The notes under the pieces are model-generated. The model had not been told where the DNA came from, searched no databases, and saw nothing but the letters and a program-made list of their open reading frames with translations. From positions 1 through 39,828 of the IMG/VR virus record IMGVR_UViG_3300037247_000432: a DNA stretch of 39,828 nt. The stretch is one strand, 5' to 3'. The translations under genes and the position numbers were made by a program. Of this stretch, positions 8,822 to 25,917 are shown one piece after another. Every line of letters starts with the position of its first letter. Positions within the stretch are counted from its first letter, which is position 1. The stretch comes from a virus.

Positions 8822-9629
8822 CTTTGTCTCTCTTTAGGGCTGTAGCCTCGGCCTTGTCCCACGCGCTATCGTGGCCGGTTGACCTGGTTGTGTCCACGCC
8901 TTCGGTGATGTGGCGCATGGCGTCCGCGGTGTAGGTCCGGAGGGATCTAGCGGTTGGACGTTGGCCGTTGGTCACAAGATCGCAGAGCGCGAGACTCAGA
9001 CCCTCCGGGGTCGGCCTGGGCTTGATCTGGCGCTCGCCAGCGAGGATCATCACACATTCGCCGATCAGGGCCTCTGGCTGTTGACTGGCCCTGACTAGCC
9101 CGTCGAGTGCTTCGTGGCCCTCTAGGGTGAGTTGGTTGCGAAACTCCGCGCGCGCGGTGGTTGTAGGGGTAGACTCTCCCTTCTCCCTTCTCCCTTCTCC
9201 CTTCTGCACGCCTACACCGACTACGGGGGCGTCTACACCGTCTACAAGTAGCCGTTTCTTCTCCCTTACTCCATCTCTCCACCGCTGCTGTCGTTCAGCT
9301 CTTTTGACCTGAGACTCTGTCCGCATGTCACGATAGGCCTGGTAGTTGATGAGCTGCCACCCACGATCGACCCTCTCGATCCGCCGGCCTTCTTGCTCTT
9401 GGTTTTTGCTGTACGGGTCGGGTTTCTGGAACTTATCAAGCGCGGTCTCACACTCCTCGAGGGTGATCCGGGCACGACCGGCCAGCCCCGGGACCGCGGC
9501 CTCGATGTATCCGGTTGAGTCGGCCATTAGGAGCATGGTGATCCAGAGTCGCACGGTAGGGTGATCTTCTGCCCAGATAGAGCTATCGAGGATGGTCGCA
9601 TACAACTTCGCGAAATGGTCAGATGTCAT
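8805..9629 (-). CDS. Replisome-organiser-like replication initiation protein, 274 aa
   Basis: The N terminus (FAKLYATILDSSIWAEDHPT, then VRLWITMLLMAD) is the start of a winged-helix domain found in phage replication organisers. RGWQLINYQAYRD at about residues 89-101 is the typical end of that domain. A basic helix (KRAERQQRWRDG) and a Gly/Lys/Glu-rich linker encoded by a 7-bp tandem repeat follow, and then a helical C-terminal domain. Proteins of this type bind an origin, often inside their own gene, and recruit helicase. The next gene looks like a helicase loader. The start at 9629 has GGGGA upstream and follows the largest gap in this part of the window. Confidence 0.7.
   Translation of the reverse strand: MTSDHFAKLYATILDSSIWAEDHPTVRLWITMLLMADSTGYIEAAVPGLAGRARITLEECETALDKFQKPDPYSKNQEQEGRRIERVDRGWQLINYQAYRDMRTESQVKRAERQQRWRDGVREKKRLLVDGVDAPVVGVGVQKGEGRREKGESTPTTTARAEFRNQLTLEGHEALDGLVRASQQPEALIGECVMILAGERQIKPRPTPEGLSLALCDLVTNGQRPTARSLRTYTADAMRHITEGVDTTRSTGHDSAWDKAEATALKRDKDAGRK
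9178..9201 (-). repeat. Four G-tracts in a 7-bp tandem repeat inside the replication gene
   Basis: On the minus strand four GGG runs are separated by identical four-base AGAA spacers, forming a 7-bp unit repeated four times. The spacing fits an intramolecular G-quadruplex. Because 7 is not a multiple of three, the repeat is read in all three codon phases and gives a Gly/Lys/Glu/Arg linker. Adjacent on the same strand, between about 9212 and 9250, GTAGACG and GTGTAG-type words recur. The position inside a replication-initiator gene suggests an origin element, which is inference. Confidence 0.6.
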
Positions 9630-20804: not shown

Positions 20805-21242
20805 TCAGATCACCTGTGAGCCTACAGCGGCGCCGGGGGGTCCGCCCACTGCGAAACCAATACCCGCGCCGACGACCGATCCGATCGCTCCCAGCAGCGC
20901 AGACTTCCGCTTACGTTTCGCCTCTTCTTCCTGGAAATCGAGTCCCCGGCTTTGGAGCCTGAGACCACTGGCACCGACACCTGTGTTGAGGGCGCCTAGC
21001 GTGGCCCTGCTGGCAATTTGGCCGAACCGATCGGTGAATTCCCTATTGACGCCTTCGAGCGCGACCTTCGTACCGCCACTCCGTAAAGCACCGATCTCGT
21101 TGAGTCCACCCAATGTGTCACCGATCCGCTCCAGCAGTTCAGGCCGGAGCAGCTCACCGCTGGCTATCACACCTTCACGGGTGAAGTCCTGGGCTCGCGG
21201 GACGTCACGGAACGGGTCGAAAGTCCTTTTAGGTGTAGGCAT
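20805..21242 (-). CDS. Small ejection-type protein with glycine-zipper C terminus, 145 aa
   Basis: The protein is helical and ends in a Gly/Ala-rich membrane-active segment (GAIGSVVGAGIGFAVGGPPG). This is typical of small internal virion proteins that help form a channel for DNA across the inner membrane. A basic patch (EEEAKRKRKSALL) directly precedes the zipper. The start overlaps the upstream stop (TAATG). The role is by analogy to T7 gp14 or P22 gp7. Confidence 0.6.
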   Translation of the reverse strand: MPTPKRTFDPFRDVPRAQDFTREGVIASGELLRPELLERIGDTLGGLNEIGALRSGGTKVALEGVNREFTDRFGQIASRATLGALNTGVGASGLRLQSRGLDFQEEEAKRKRKSALLGAIGSVVGAGIGFAVGGPPGAAVGSQVI

Positions 21243-21613
21243 TAGAGCGTCTCCCTCAACAACTCGGCTTCGAGTTGGCTGATACCAAGCTGTTGCAACC
21301 GCCGGACATGCGCATCGCGGTTCTTGTGGGGGTTCGGGTTGCCGCGGTGCCCACCACCGGCCCGGGTGAGCGCTTCACCTACCGCCTGACTGAGAGCGGC
21401 GTCGTTGTCGTCACCACCGCCACCCATGAGCTTACCACCCTCACGCCTGAGCGCCGCGCCCATCGAGTGCGCGGGGAACTCGGCGTCAACCGGGTCCACG
21501 TCGAACGGCTGAGGCTGTTGCGGTGGTTGAGGCTGCATGAGTTGCTGGCCTACAGCCCGGGGATCGGGCGTAGGCTGTTGGCCGGGTCGTGTAAATCCGA
21601 AAGCGCCTGGCAT
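21242..21613 (-). CDS. Pro/Gln-rich virion-associated protein, 123 aa
   Basis: The first 40 residues are Pro/Gln-rich (QQLMQPQPPQQPQPFDVD), the middle is Gly-rich, and the end is a short charged helix (HVRRLQQLGISQLEAELLRE). The start at 21613 follows AGGAGG inside a very small upstream frame. It lies between the spikes and the ejection genes, so a structural or assembly role is likely. No family is recognised. Confidence 0.5.
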   Translation of the reverse strand: MPGAFGFTRPGQQPTPDPRAVGQQLMQPQPPQQPQPFDVDPVDAEFPAHSMGAALRREGGKLMGGGGDDNDAALSQAVGEALTRAGGGHRGNPNPHKNRDAHVRRLQQLGISQLEAELLRETL

Positions 21614-21682: not shown

Positions 21683-23125
21683 TTAAGCCACTAAATTTTG
21701 ATGATCTGTTGTACTTGTCCCTGAATCGGTGATTGCTGTTGCCCAATTTAATACTGTGTTATTCGTGAGGACGTTCTTTTCAGACGTACCACTCGGCTCC
21801 GTCACGTAAAGCCCGATGCTGCCCGCTACGTTGTTTCCATGTAGGGTGTTAGAAGAAACGACATTGAAACTGCACGTAGACCCCGCAGCGTTGTTGAAGA
21901 TGGCAATACCCCGAACGTCACCGGAGGCTGGTGCGTGTATGACATTCCCGGTTACCGAATTGTAGTTCGAGTTTGTTGTGCCATCTGCGTATATCCGTAT
22001 TCCCGCATCCTCGGCTGCATTTCCGGCGTTTCGGATCGTGTTGCCACTTATGGCGCAATAAGACGACTTGTTTACAGAAAAGCCATTGCCGGTGGCAGCC
22101 CGCTCAATGGTATTCCCCGAAGCTGTACAATAACTAGACGTGACAATTTCAATGCCGAGTCCACCGGCATCAACGTGGTTGTCGCCGATACTAGTGTAGG
22201 GAGAGCCGTCATTACTAATGCCAAATGTTCCAGCGGCTTCTATCGTATTACCTGAAACTACACCCCCACCCTCCGAGTTCTGCCAATACTCAATCCCCAT
22301 ATCACCTGCGGACGCGATATAGTTCCCAGAGATGTTAGCCCTGTGACTGTCGTTCCCCACCCAGATACCATTCCCATCAACGCCCGTTGTGTCGATGTGA
22401 TTTCCCTTAACCCGAACGCCGGGACAGCGCCAGTTACAAGCGATTGCGTGGTTTGACGATCCACCACTGCCCTTCGTCCCGACATTGACGACCCAATTGT
22501 CTTTGATTAAAAGCCCTGTGTTGATCTTAGCTGCATTGTTAGACCCAATGCGAATTGCACCGTTGATCATGTCGAAGAAATGACACTCAATGATTGAAAC
22601 CCTATCGGTTGCCCTCGTAGTGTTAATGAACCGGATACCATGCCTATCGTCGGTCGTGTTGTTCGACTCATTACCATCCCAAGCCAAACGATATACCGTG
22701 AAGTTCTCCAGGTCCGCCGCCGTATCATTGATGAGCATGCTTAGGTTGACGTTGTTGTCTTGCTTAATGGTGGCAGCACGACCTCCAGGACCCTGTAGAG
22801 TCACGTTGGACTTCGCCACCAACGAGGCAGTGATACGATAAGTTCCTTCTGGGAGGTAAACAACTCCCCCACCATCCGAGTTTGCTTGATCTAGCGCTGC
22901 CTGAACCGCTACTGTATCGTCTGTCACCCCATCACCCTTCGCACCGAACGCAAGAACATTAAACACGCCGGGATTGTTTATAAGCTCTGTTAACGCTGCG
23001 TCACGCTGATCGGCAAAACTCAACCCCGACATCAGACCCCTGAAGTATTGCGAGATTGCGGTGGAGAGCCTACTACCGACGATATTGCCCTGGTTGCTTG
23101 TAGGCCACGAAGAGAAAAAAGTCAT
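21683..23125 (-). CDS. Tail spike with pectate-lyase-type beta helix, 480 aa
   Basis: Residues 1-50 form an anchor (WPTSNQGNIVGSRL, DQRDAALTEL) also found in the neighbouring spike. Residues 54-110 are the start of a pectate-lyase-like beta helix (VFNVLAFGAKGDGVTDDTVA, GGGVVYLPEGTYRI). Up to about residue 460 follow right-handed beta-helix rungs with NosD-like repeats (ISGNTIRNAG, VTGNVIHAP). Proteins of this kind bind and often degrade host surface sugars. Catalytic residues cannot be assigned by eye. The start lies directly behind a 24-base repeat shared with the other spike. Confidence 0.8.
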   Translation of the reverse strand: MTFFSSWPTSNQGNIVGSRLSTAISQYFRGLMSGLSFADQRDAALTELINNPGVFNVLAFGAKGDGVTDDTVAVQAALDQANSDGGGVVYLPEGTYRITASLVAKSNVTLQGPGGRAATIKQDNNVNLSMLINDTAADLENFTVYRLAWDGNESNNTTDDRHGIRFINTTRATDRVSIIECHFFDMINGAIRIGSNNAAKINTGLLIKDNWVVNVGTKGSGGSSNHAIACNWRCPGVRVKGNHIDTTGVDGNGIWVGNDSHRANISGNYIASAGDMGIEYWQNSEGGGVVSGNTIEAAGTFGISNDGSPYTSIGDNHVDAGGLGIEIVTSSYCTASGNTIERAATGNGFSVNKSSYCAISGNTIRNAGNAAEDAGIRIYADGTTNSNYNSVTGNVIHAPASGDVRGIAIFNNAAGSTCSFNVVSSNTLHGNNVAGSIGLYVTEPSGTSEKNVLTNNTVLNWATAITDSGTSTTDHQNLVA

Positions 23126-23149
23126 GCTCTCGCCTGTACGGTTCGCATT
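23126..23149 (-). repeat. Copy 2 of a 24-bp direct repeat before a spike gene
   Basis: These 24 bases are identical to 25014-25037. Here they are mostly non-coding, between the stop of the first spike (23148) and the start of the second (23125). In the other copy they encode the last residues (MRTVQARA) of a 162-aa gene. The copies are 1888 bases apart and each lies directly before a spike start codon. This looks like a duplication or insertion scar. Confidence 0.85.
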
Positions 23150-25010
23150 AGTTCACGCTCCGAGAGTCTTCATTCCATACTTGATCGTTATACATCGTAA
23201 GGGTCAGGGTGTCGCTGTCCGTCATGTCGTAGTCAGCACCGCCGGCAAGGATGATAGGTGTGCCGTCAGTGATCTTTACGCTGTGAGCAGCAAGGATCGT
23301 AATCGTTTGCCCCACGACACCGTCATCGAAATCTGTAATTGTCGTGGTCCCGCCTGTTTTGAAACGGTTGCCAGCCGAGACGGATGGAGTTGCATCGTCG
23401 GCCAACGTGGTTACCGTCGTTGGCACGAACGCTCCGGTGATGGTAAACGGACCATAGATCGTCCCTCCAAGAATACTAAGTATTCCCGTTTGGGCTTGCG
23501 AAGCCGCAAAAAGGAAGATCCGGGCCAGCCGGACAGTTGCAGCAGCCATACCCTCTAGCGTGATCCTCAACTGAGAGATGTTATTGATAGTCAGATCCGC
23601 CGGGATTGCAGTGACAACCTGGGTAGCAACATTGACGGTAGTTGCGAAAAGAGTCTTCCAAGACGAAGAGTCAGAATCAAAAAACTCAATGGTTATCTGC
23701 TCGGCATAGCGGGCACCGTGAAACTGAATCCCTACTGCCGCAGGGGCATTCACCGTCGTGTTGGTGTTTACCGTAACTATCGTAGGAGAACTAGTGTCAA
23801 TATTGTTCCACTCCGCATACGTTGTTGGATCGGGATGAAACATGTTTGCCAGCGCTCCGCCACTCTTGGCAACCGAAGAGGTAATGGTAAACCCACGCTC
23901 ATCCGCAGCAACAAGGAAGTCGTCCACTCCAGCGAAGTTACGTGTGCTGAAGGAGTTTGGAGGCAGTAAGTAGTTAACGGCTAAAGGCAACGGGGTAGCG
24001 GTCTGCAGATCGATCCGGTTCTTATCCCCTTTGTCGAGGATATGAGTCCCATCCAAACCTTGGATACGCAACCAATTTGTCACGCCGAATAACTCAACAG
24101 CTACCGGGAACCCAGCCGCAGTACCAGCCCGATAATCCCAAACCAACAACTCAAAGAGATTATTAGTACCTTCGCAGTAAATGATCCTTTCCGTAGCGGC
24201 GTGTGTCTGAACCTGCCCCTCAAAGCGGTTCCCATCACACTGCTCATCAGAAGCGAGTCCCTCTAAATAAATTGCATACACCGCCGCTGTGATGTTGACC
24301 ACACAGTTGCATCCGTTGATGTAGGTCGTGCCGGAACCTAGTGTGTTCTCTGGGTTGAAATGAATCCCATAGTACGTAGCCTCGATCTTAGCACGAATGC
24401 GAATAAACGAAATAAAGTTTCCATTGTCGGCATGAAGCCGGACACCGGCACTACTGGTCTGACGATTGCCTATAATCCGGCCCCCGCCCGCAATGATGTC
24501 AGAAGTTGTCGTGTTTGTGAACCAATTATTATCACCCTCAACGATTACCCCGGCCTTTGTGAATGTTGCTAAAGCAGAAAAGTCAATATCCCCATTCAAC
24601 TCAATAGTACCTCCACGGTTGAGATCGACTACATTCCAATCGCCGGAAGGGGCCAGTGTAGCTCCGAAAGCCACAACTAATTGAGCAGAAGCAGCCACTA
24701 TCAAGCCAGGCGTGCCTATGGCATAGGTGCCAGCCGGAACCATCACGATCCCACCAGATACAGCAGCATCATCAAGAGCAGCCTGGATTGCATCGGTATC
24801 GTCTGTAACCCCATCACCAACGGCACCATACGACTTGACGTTGAACACCTCGGGAGTCGTCGCGAGCAATTCCGCAAGGGCCGCGTCTCTTTGGTCGGTT
24901 AAGCTCAAGACGTTGAGCCCACCAGTGAACCGGTGGTACAGCTCGTTGGCGAGTCGTGTGCCTACGATGTTGCCCTGGTTCGACGTCGGCCATGATGGAT
25001 ACTTGGACAT
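23148..25010 (-). CDS. Tail spike with pectate-lyase-type beta helix, 620 aa
   Basis: The N terminus (SWPTSNQGNIVGTRL, LTDQRDAALAEL) matches the anchor of the 480-aa spike. Residues 57-115 are the beta-helix start (VFNVKSYGAVGDGVTDDTDA, GGIVMVPAGTYAI). The middle is a beta helix. From about residue 390 a separate beta-sandwich-like part follows. The last 100 residues form a C-terminal module seen on phage spikes and fibres (TTVTTLADDATPSVSAGNRF, GQTITILAAHSVKITDG, MYNDQVWNEDSRS). It is the first of two tandem spikes and overlaps the upstream stop (TAATG). Sugar binding or cleavage is inferred. Confidence 0.8.
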   Translation of the reverse strand: MSKYPSWPTSNQGNIVGTRLANELYHRFTGGLNVLSLTDQRDAALAELLATTPEVFNVKSYGAVGDGVTDDTDAIQAALDDAAVSGGIVMVPAGTYAIGTPGLIVAASAQLVVAFGATLAPSGDWNVVDLNRGGTIELNGDIDFSALATFTKAGVIVEGDNNWFTNTTTSDIIAGGGRIIGNRQTSSAGVRLHADNGNFISFIRIRAKIEATYYGIHFNPENTLGSGTTYINGCNCVVNITAAVYAIYLEGLASDEQCDGNRFEGQVQTHAATERIIYCEGTNNLFELLVWDYRAGTAAGFPVAVELFGVTNWLRIQGLDGTHILDKGDKNRIDLQTATPLPLAVNYLLPPNSFSTRNFAGVDDFLVAADERGFTITSSVAKSGGALANMFHPDPTTYAEWNNIDTSSPTIVTVNTNTTVNAPAAVGIQFHGARYAEQITIEFFDSDSSSWKTLFATTVNVATQVVTAIPADLTINNISQLRITLEGMAAATVRLARIFLFAASQAQTGILSILGGTIYGPFTITGAFVPTTVTTLADDATPSVSAGNRFKTGGTTTITDFDDGVVGQTITILAAHSVKITDGTPIILAGGADYDMTDSDTLTLTMYNDQVWNEDSRSVN

Positions 25011-25498
25011 TACGCTCTCGCCTGTACGGTTCGCATTTGAAGGTGGGCAGCGTAGAGGATGGGATCAAATGCACCATCCCCCACAACGCGGATTTCAATT
25101 TCCTCGTCACCGCCGTTCGGAGCGAACACGGTCCACGAACCCTCATCGGTCTGCTCACTTGCGTTCGTGAGGGTCGCGGTAGCCATCGCCGCCGAAGTCG
25201 TGACGTTGTAGAGTTGCACGATCACGGAGCCACTGGCGCTGTTCTCGCCTCGCACCACGAGCCTTACCGAGTCCACGCCGGCGTCTTGGAAGTCAATCAT
25301 GGTGCGCGTCTTCGTAAGTGCCGTACCTGCTCCCGACGCAGCGTTCGTCACCGTGTGCCCGCCGATCTCCAACAGGAGGGCGACCACCGAGAGGCTTACG
25401 ACCTTACCGAACAGTGCGTGGAGGATATCCAGTACGCTTCTGAGCGGACCGGGCTCCGGCCGGAGCCCGAAATCGATGACTGGGTCTTTCCTGCTCAT
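25010..25498 (-). CDS. Beta-rich tail/virion protein, 162 aa
   Basis: A short N-terminal helix with a hydrophobic segment (KVVSLSVVALLLEIGGHTV) is followed by a beta-sandwich pattern (MIDFQDAGVDSVRLVVRGEN, SGSVIVQLYNV, GDEEIEIRVVGDG). Such jelly-roll-like domains are used as carbohydrate-binding or chaperone modules of phage tails. The last residues are encoded by the 24-bp repeat. The gene is directly before the first spike and coupled to it (TAATG). Confidence 0.55.
   Translation of the reverse strand: MSRKDPVIDFGLRPEPGPLRSVLDILHALFGKVVSLSVVALLLEIGGHTVTNAASGAGTALTKTRTMIDFQDAGVDSVRLVVRGENSASGSVIVQLYNVTTSAAMATATLTNASEQTDEGSWTVFAPNGGDEEIEIRVVGDGAFDPILYAAHLQMRTVQARA
25014..25037 (-). repeat. 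Copy 1 of a 24-bp direct repeat, at a gene end
   Basis: This copy encodes the C-terminal MRTVQARA of the 162-aa protein and adjoins the TAATG overlap with the 620-aa spike. It is identical to 23126-23149. Being in frame here, this copy is probably the parent sequence, and the other is the scar left after spike duplication. Confidence 0.85.
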
Positions 25499-25917
25499 CG
25501 CACGCTCCTCCGTGGCACAACGTACTGCTGGGCTTTCCCCAATTCTGCCGCAGCGTCGAACGAAGAAAGCGTGTGCTTCACCTGGAAATTCGTGCCCCCC
25601 TCGAACACGGGAGCGACGACGATCGGATTGTCGCCGATAGCGAGCGTTTTCGAGACGGTGCTGCCGGATTCTTGCTGATCCCGGTAGGGTGTGGTCACGA
25701 CCGTCACGGCTCCGTCCGCATGCACATGCTGGACCGCACGCCGGAATGTCGAATAGCCGCCGTCCCTGCCAACGTCGAAAATTGTCGACAACACAAACGG
25801 GGCGTAGGCGCTACCACCCGTTCCCGCCAAAGCCGCTTGATCTTTCACGACCGCCTCGTCATCAAGCGTAAGCACTTGGCCACTGTGCGCCTCAACGGCA
25901 TAAAAAGGAATCGACAC
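25495..25917 (-). CDS. Probable tail/virion protein, 140 aa
   Basis: The protein is beta-rich (FYAVEAHSGQVLTLDDEAVV, VTVVTTPYRDQQESG, IVVAPVFEGGTNFQVKHTL) and ends in a short charged helix. Both ends overlap neighbouring genes in the tail block. It follows the nozzle-like gene, suggesting that it attaches to that protein. No family is recognised. Confidence 0.5.
   Translation of the reverse strand: MSIPFYAVEAHSGQVLTLDDEAVVKDQAALAGTGGSAYAPFVLSTIFDVGRDGGYSTFRRAVQHVHADGAVTVVTTPYRDQQESGSTVSKTLAIGDNPIVVAPVFEGGTNFQVKHTLSSFDAAAELGKAQQYVVPRRSVR

Follow-up and report, generated by a model that had tools for sequence, protein, structure and literature searches.

We analysed the metagenomic virus record IMGVR_UViG_3300037247_000432, an unfinished contig of 39,828 bp (hereafter, the window), with a focus on two adjacent genes, spike1 and spike2, and on a 24-bp direct repeat beside their start codons. 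The phage carrying this locus is an unclassified tailed phage, and its structural genes occupy the minus strand throughout the window in the order portal, scaffold, major capsid protein, a 601-amino-acid (aa) tail protein, gp140, a 162-aa gene, spike1, spike2, gp123, gp145, a 399-aa protein and a 1417-aa protein. According to the gene table, overlaps of -1 and -4 nt are frequent within this cluster. The spike genes and their surroundings form a modular receptor-binding locus (Table 1).

Table 1 Features of the spike locus and its flanks, in window coordinates. GC3, GC content at third codon positions; ORF, open reading frame.
Feature	Position	Strand	Remarks
gp140	25495..25917	-	conserved; precedes the spike position in relatives
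162-aa gene	25010..25498	-	ORF; 3' end is repeat copy 1; homologues in relatives
Repeat copy 1, AATGCGAACCGTACAGGCGAGAGC	25014..25037	-	encodes the end of the 162-aa protein; probable spike1 start region
spike1, 620 aa, anchor and beta-helix tail spike	23148..25010	-	Pfam and PHROG matches
spike1 N-terminal anchor, ~58 codons, GC3 0.76	24837..25010	-
Repeat copy 2 (scar), abuts the spike2 start	23126..23149	-
8-codon mini-ORF MRTVQARA within the scar	23122..23148	-	overlaps spike1 stop and spike2 start
spike2, 480 aa, anchor and right-handed beta-helix	21683..23125	-	Pfam and PHROG matches
spike2 N-terminal anchor, ~57 codons, GC3 0.58	22955..23125	-
gp123	21242..21613	-	conserved; follows the spike position in relatives

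Both spike proteins match PF12708, the pectate-lyase-like beta-helix entry, above its curated cut-off of 27 bits (spike1: 5e-13, 49.7 bits; spike2: 6e-17, 62.5 bits), and spike2 also matches the right-handed beta-helix family PF13229 (6e-16). Each additionally hits a tail-spike family—phrog_12123 for spike1 (3e-44, residues 42-523) and phrog_2234 for spike2 (6e-23)—while the tail spike of Bacillus phage Goe8 aligns with spike1 at 26.5% over 77% of the latter. With the Pfam cut-off exceeded and tail-spike families recognised, the two genes are classed, from their sequences, as phage tail spikes with a pectate-lyase-like beta-helix. A single-sequence structure model of spike2 was poor (predicted local distance difference test, pLDDT, 48) and was kept out of the fold search.

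The first ~58 residues of the two spikes are homologous (34/61 identical, 56%), bearing out the tandem spikes with a shared anchor and a common pectate-lyase entry that a preliminary description of the window had reported. Similarity extends to about residue 153 (BLASTP, 46% over residues 1-155), past which there are trivial matches only, and the two anchors are mutually nearest among the eight anchors found (sister support 82/90). At the nucleotide level, identity over the first ~110 aligned codons is 56%, the four-fold sites of conserved residues agree at 9 of 32 positions, which is the chance level, and the longest exact word common to both genes measures 11 nt. Because the four-fold sites are randomised, the two spikes appear to have split long ago. 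Base composition adds a further break: GC3 is 0.76 in the spike1 anchor, as in much of the genome, falls to 0.38 right behind it (break at the anchor/body border, P = 5e-4) and averages 0.52 in the spike1 body, with 0.58 in the spike2 anchor. Judged by GC3, the spike1 anchor, the spike1 body and the spike2 anchor differ in history.

The repeat, AATGCGAACCGTACAGGCGAGAGC, occurs exactly twice; with a 7-bp tandem array at 9175 set aside, no other direct repeat in the window is exact over so great a length. Since random genomes of the same size and dinucleotide make-up (first-order) reach longest exact direct repeats of just 14-18 bp, it is far longer than chance would give. The same 24 bases do precede both start codons, with different spacing: copy 1 encodes the end of the upstream gene, as first described (the 162-aa protein ends in ...MRTVQARA), and is separated from the spike1 ATG by GTA, and copy 2 directly abuts the spike2 ATG. 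Copy 2 lies between the spike genes, its first two bases being the last two of the spike1 TAA stop. The initial view of copy 2 as mostly noncoding needs amending to the extent that it includes, except for the final bases, an 8-codon ORF with the sequence ATG CGA ACC GTA CAG GCG AGA GCA TGA, again reading MRTVQARA. The overlap of this ORF amounts to 1 nt with the spike1 stop (TAATG) and to 4 nt with the spike2 start (ATGA); apart from this possible mini-ORF, copy 2 has no protein-coding duty. Our comparison shows copy 2 to be a duplicated piece of the 3' end of the 162-aa gene. In the one-spike relative G002, the stretch orthologous to the repeat (CAGATGCGCACCGTGCAGGCGAGATCATGAGC) is alike at 20 of 24 bases, several of the differences being silent; because it differs at 4/24 positions, the stretch is not frozen. 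A search for the exact 24-mer in IMG/VR returned no other contig, and a promoter/terminator scan, at or below chance level, placed no site at either repeat.

About a dozen relatives were collected from IMG/VR via capsid and tail-protein searches, which allowed the one- versus two-spike comparison that had been proposed. Both zero- and one-spike relatives emerged, and two spikes after the 162-aa gene occur, among the relatives compared, only in the window. G002/L005 has gp140, the 162-aa gene, a single spike, gp123 and gp145 in this order; in G013/L031 the 162-aa gene is followed by gp123 with the spike absent there, and G010/L051 likewise has no spike gene between the 162-aa homologue and the following genes. 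In G005, G007, G008 and G009, a fibre or spike sits between gp140 and the 162-aa gene, and the nearest relative, L003/L004, retains ~22 N-terminal residues of the 162-aa protein ahead of a different fibre body. The anchor itself travels more widely. In G005 and G008, the anchor alone sits at the N-terminus of short proteins encoded between portal and scaffold, and G013 has it at the start of two proteins located upstream of the tail protein; in G009, an anchored spike follows a 179-aa gene, a homologue of which precedes the anchored protein of G008 and a relative of which lies nearby in G005. With the anchor at several genome places and the 162-aa neighbourhood so variable, we infer that the anchor is a reusable docking piece, and the neighbourhood of the 162-aa gene is thus a hot spot for receptor-binding genes. 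In G005, G008 and G013, anchored proteins do lie elsewhere and lack the repeat. Such a pattern had been put forward as a sign of accidental origin of the repeat, and half of that expectation is therefore borne out; it does not turn the window repeat into a product of chance. As a separate observation, two anchor-bearing proteins of G013 (L050, reverse-complement 2760 and 3981) lie 1.2 kb apart with ctgagcc before both GTG starts, a possible parallel to the window repeat that is short enough for chance.

Other searches yielded little. Querying both window anchors against IMG/VR gave no relative, and the 162-aa gene gave nothing when used alone and G002 only when aligned with its G002 homologue. 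Alignments of tail protein and capsid against bacterial and archaeal genome contigs revealed no prophage relatives and no host, the tail protein had no match in the phage collection, and the capsid reached only ~24% to Arthrobacter/Microbacterium phages.

The repeat and the genes that it precedes differ in apparent age. As 24 bp are identical while the silent sites of the adjoining coding regions are saturated, the repeat is probably younger than the split of the spikes; most likely, the 24 bp were shared recently and the spikes had separated long before. We favour, with a probability of roughly 0.58, a history in which an already diverged second spike joined the locus by recombination at the tail of the 162-aa gene, leaving the 24-bp scar. 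The simplest route would be one unequal crossover during a mixed infection between related phages, in which the end of one phage's spike gene (...AACTAATG) would be fused to the partner's 162-aa gene at its internal Met155 codon (...CAAATGCG), the two sides of the joint having only AATG in common. From this one event, the last 24 bp of the partner's gene would remain as the scar, and the partner's spike would be brought in. Gene ends of the spike1 type do exist, since the stop of the G005 fibre gene overlaps the next start as TAATG. Copy 2, in turn, looks like a resident junction because its -4 overlap (AGAGC-ATGA) equals that of the 162-aa gene with the next gene in G002, and L031 also overlaps by 4 nt. 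Joining the flanks across the repeat in silico removes 1888 bp, leaves the 162-aa protein unchanged and sets spike2 at the ATGA overlap, which is the G002 arrangement; the locus could thus lose spike1 cleanly, and recombination between the repeats would return it exactly to the one-spike state. The anchor would dock both spikes at the same type of tail site, and the spikes would bind or cleave different surface polysaccharides; the proposed two receptor specificities on one tail are plausible.

Several points weigh against this recombination scenario. IMG/VR searches uncovered neither another genome with two spikes nor a donor phage with spike1 or spike2, so that the crossover is inferred from a single genome. 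Selection on a start region could in principle hold 24 bp identical. The evidence on the order of arrival points both ways: the form of the junction speaks for spike2 as the resident, GC3 and the proximity of other anchors for the spike1 anchor as native. In addition, the scar has a possible weak ribosome-binding site, from which spike2 may start independently.

The initial proposal was an in-place tandem duplication of the 24 bp together with a spike, followed by point mutation and body exchange. Parts of it stand: the anchors are homologous and each other's nearest relatives, a duplicated segment did leave the repeat as its scar, the joint sits where a duplicated unit would leave it, and the adjacent anchored genes have a one-spike relative with the same flanking genes, as expected of a dual spike born by duplication. 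What lacks support is the notion that the 24 bp and the anchor were duplicated together, since repeat and coding part are not of equal age (24/24 bases against 9/32 four-fold sites). An exact 24-mer would survive in mostly noncoding bases with a chance of ~5e-6 at the 60% identity of the anchors, and of 1-2% even at the 82-85% seen in the core genes of the closest relative. We consider this proposal unlikely, and acquisition of an already different spike fits better than one duplication followed by drift. An old duplication could be reconciled with the identical 24 bp if gene conversion between the copies had preserved them, or selection on their role as a translation start region, and the stretch does sit ahead of both start codons. 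Yet the orthologous stretch in G002 has changed, ~10 of the 24 bases are enough for a start region—leaving 14 free sites that, at the identity of the four-fold sites, would all agree with a chance of ~2e-8—and gene conversion confined to 24 bp with no flanking homology would be unusual, which makes this explanation less likely again.

An artefact, in which two strain variants of a mixed population were assembled into one contig via a shared 24-mer, deserves mention for an unfinished metagenomic record whose repeat is near short assembly word lengths. However, real reads linking the spike1 end to the 24-mer would still have been required, and the joint leaves every gene intact and in register; we regard such an assembly error as very unlikely. 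Hardly any credit is due to the idea that the repeat arose by chance or acts as a promoter-like signal, with no duplication involved: it exceeds the 18 bp that random genomes reach, neither copy carries a promoter-like site, and copy 1 is coding and orthologous in G002. Chance origin was accordingly rejected.

Under the favoured recombination with a diverged spike, the scar would still serve as the start region of spike2. The 8-codon ORF would bridge the 22-nt gap between the spikes via TAATG and then ATGA, so that ribosomes finishing spike1 could pass to spike2. Its overlaps, -1 with spike1 and -4 with spike2, are of the kinds that mark termination-reinitiation pairs. In reporter tests, coupling by reinitiation all but disappeared with ~20 nt between genes, and reinitiation required no more of the upstream gene than its last 15 nt (PMC10666635); given these two results, the scar may keep spike2 coupled to spike1 through the mini-ORF. 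A broader proposal is tentative and, to us, doubtful: that the remnant of the 162-aa gene acts as a relay ORF keeping the added spike in the translational chain, and that the repeat at the same time permits precise loss of spike1 and hence switching between one and two spikes without gene breakage. A second small ORF was noticed downstream: 16 codons (MAYAIAWNQVVPVGGG; 21668-21618, minus strand) between spike2 and gp123, with a strong AAAGGAG site and a stop shortly ahead of the gp123 start. It begins with bases similar to those at the gp123 start of G002 and may likewise be left over from a joint.

The Ackermannviridae already offer examples of several spikes that have N-terminal parts in common and exchanged bodies, and their TSP1-4 resemble the present pair: the genes are neighbours, their N-terminal structural parts are conserved and their receptor-binding bodies have diverged. 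Duplication as well as recombination of genes has been proposed for them, and an added spike has recombined with adjacent ones or deleted them (PMC11414711, PMC8432352). Those spikes assemble into a branched complex via XD/TD domains and their 5' ends are alike in sequence, whereas here the anchor spans ~58 residues with saturated silent sites, no XD/TD domains were recognised and the scar consists of the end of the gene in front. The conserved anchor with foreign bodies, the joints at gene borders and the GC3 break in spike1 recall the mosaic exchange of receptor-binding modules in tailed phages, from which the locus departs in that a whole second gene was added rather than replaced and a short direct repeat was left. 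The mini-ORF itself is reminiscent of ORF-11 at the integron site attI1, an ORF of the 8-11-codon class at a recombination joint by the start of the next gene and a demonstrated case of a short ORF passing ribosomes to the following gene (PMC8876359). A strong ribosome-binding site of its own and membership in a site-specific integrase system characterise ORF-11, and neither was seen here; no integrase was noted among the genes scanned, and no search was dedicated to integrases or attachment sites. TAATG and ATGA are coupled types among the -4/-1 overlaps studied for termination-reinitiation (PMC10666635), and in contrast to those gene pairs, the mini-ORF is a predicted bridge between two genes. 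Specific to this locus are the scar from the tail of the preceding gene, the age mismatch and the possible translational relay.

With respect to the 162-aa protein, an AlphaFold model (pLDDT 80) has an N-terminal helix and an 8-stranded beta-sandwich, with fold matches to TNF/C1q-like and carbohydrate-binding beta-sandwiches. These were weak and generic; we therefore rejected the protein as a proven adaptor and treat it as a candidate adaptor or short fibre tip.

Elsewhere in the window, Rfam and tRNA scans gave no matches. A 115-aa gene is present in two copies (29437-29090 and 28073-27726, minus strand), preceded by similar 41-nt stretches (71%), and in three tandem copies in the nearest relative (L004 7742-8804). 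Ahead of the portal gene (~39250-39000, minus), an ORF of ~83 aa with a signal-like N-terminus comprises only the first pectate-lyase beta-helix turn (PF12708, 5e-13) and is too short for a working beta-helix; G002 has a similar one (contig 1-600, minus). Immediately 3' of the capsid gene lies an endonuclease VII/HNH-type gene (34358-33690, minus), with a homologue at the same place only in L009 among the relatives, which looks like a mobile insertion. Behind these two genes, a 330-aa gene (33641-32649, minus) has a beta-helix-like look, lacks a Pfam match and diverges fast among relatives (36% in L004).

The addition of a spike at this locus is an interesting but largely familiar phage route to more host-recognition genes. 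The locus catches a recent step in the gain of a second such gene, with zero-, one- and two-spike relatives available for comparison. It also suggests a simple rule for the survival of such joints, namely that the crossover preserves stop/start overlaps that the next gene may need for its expression. If true, this would explain how the densely packed operons of phages can take up spikes with their translation intact.

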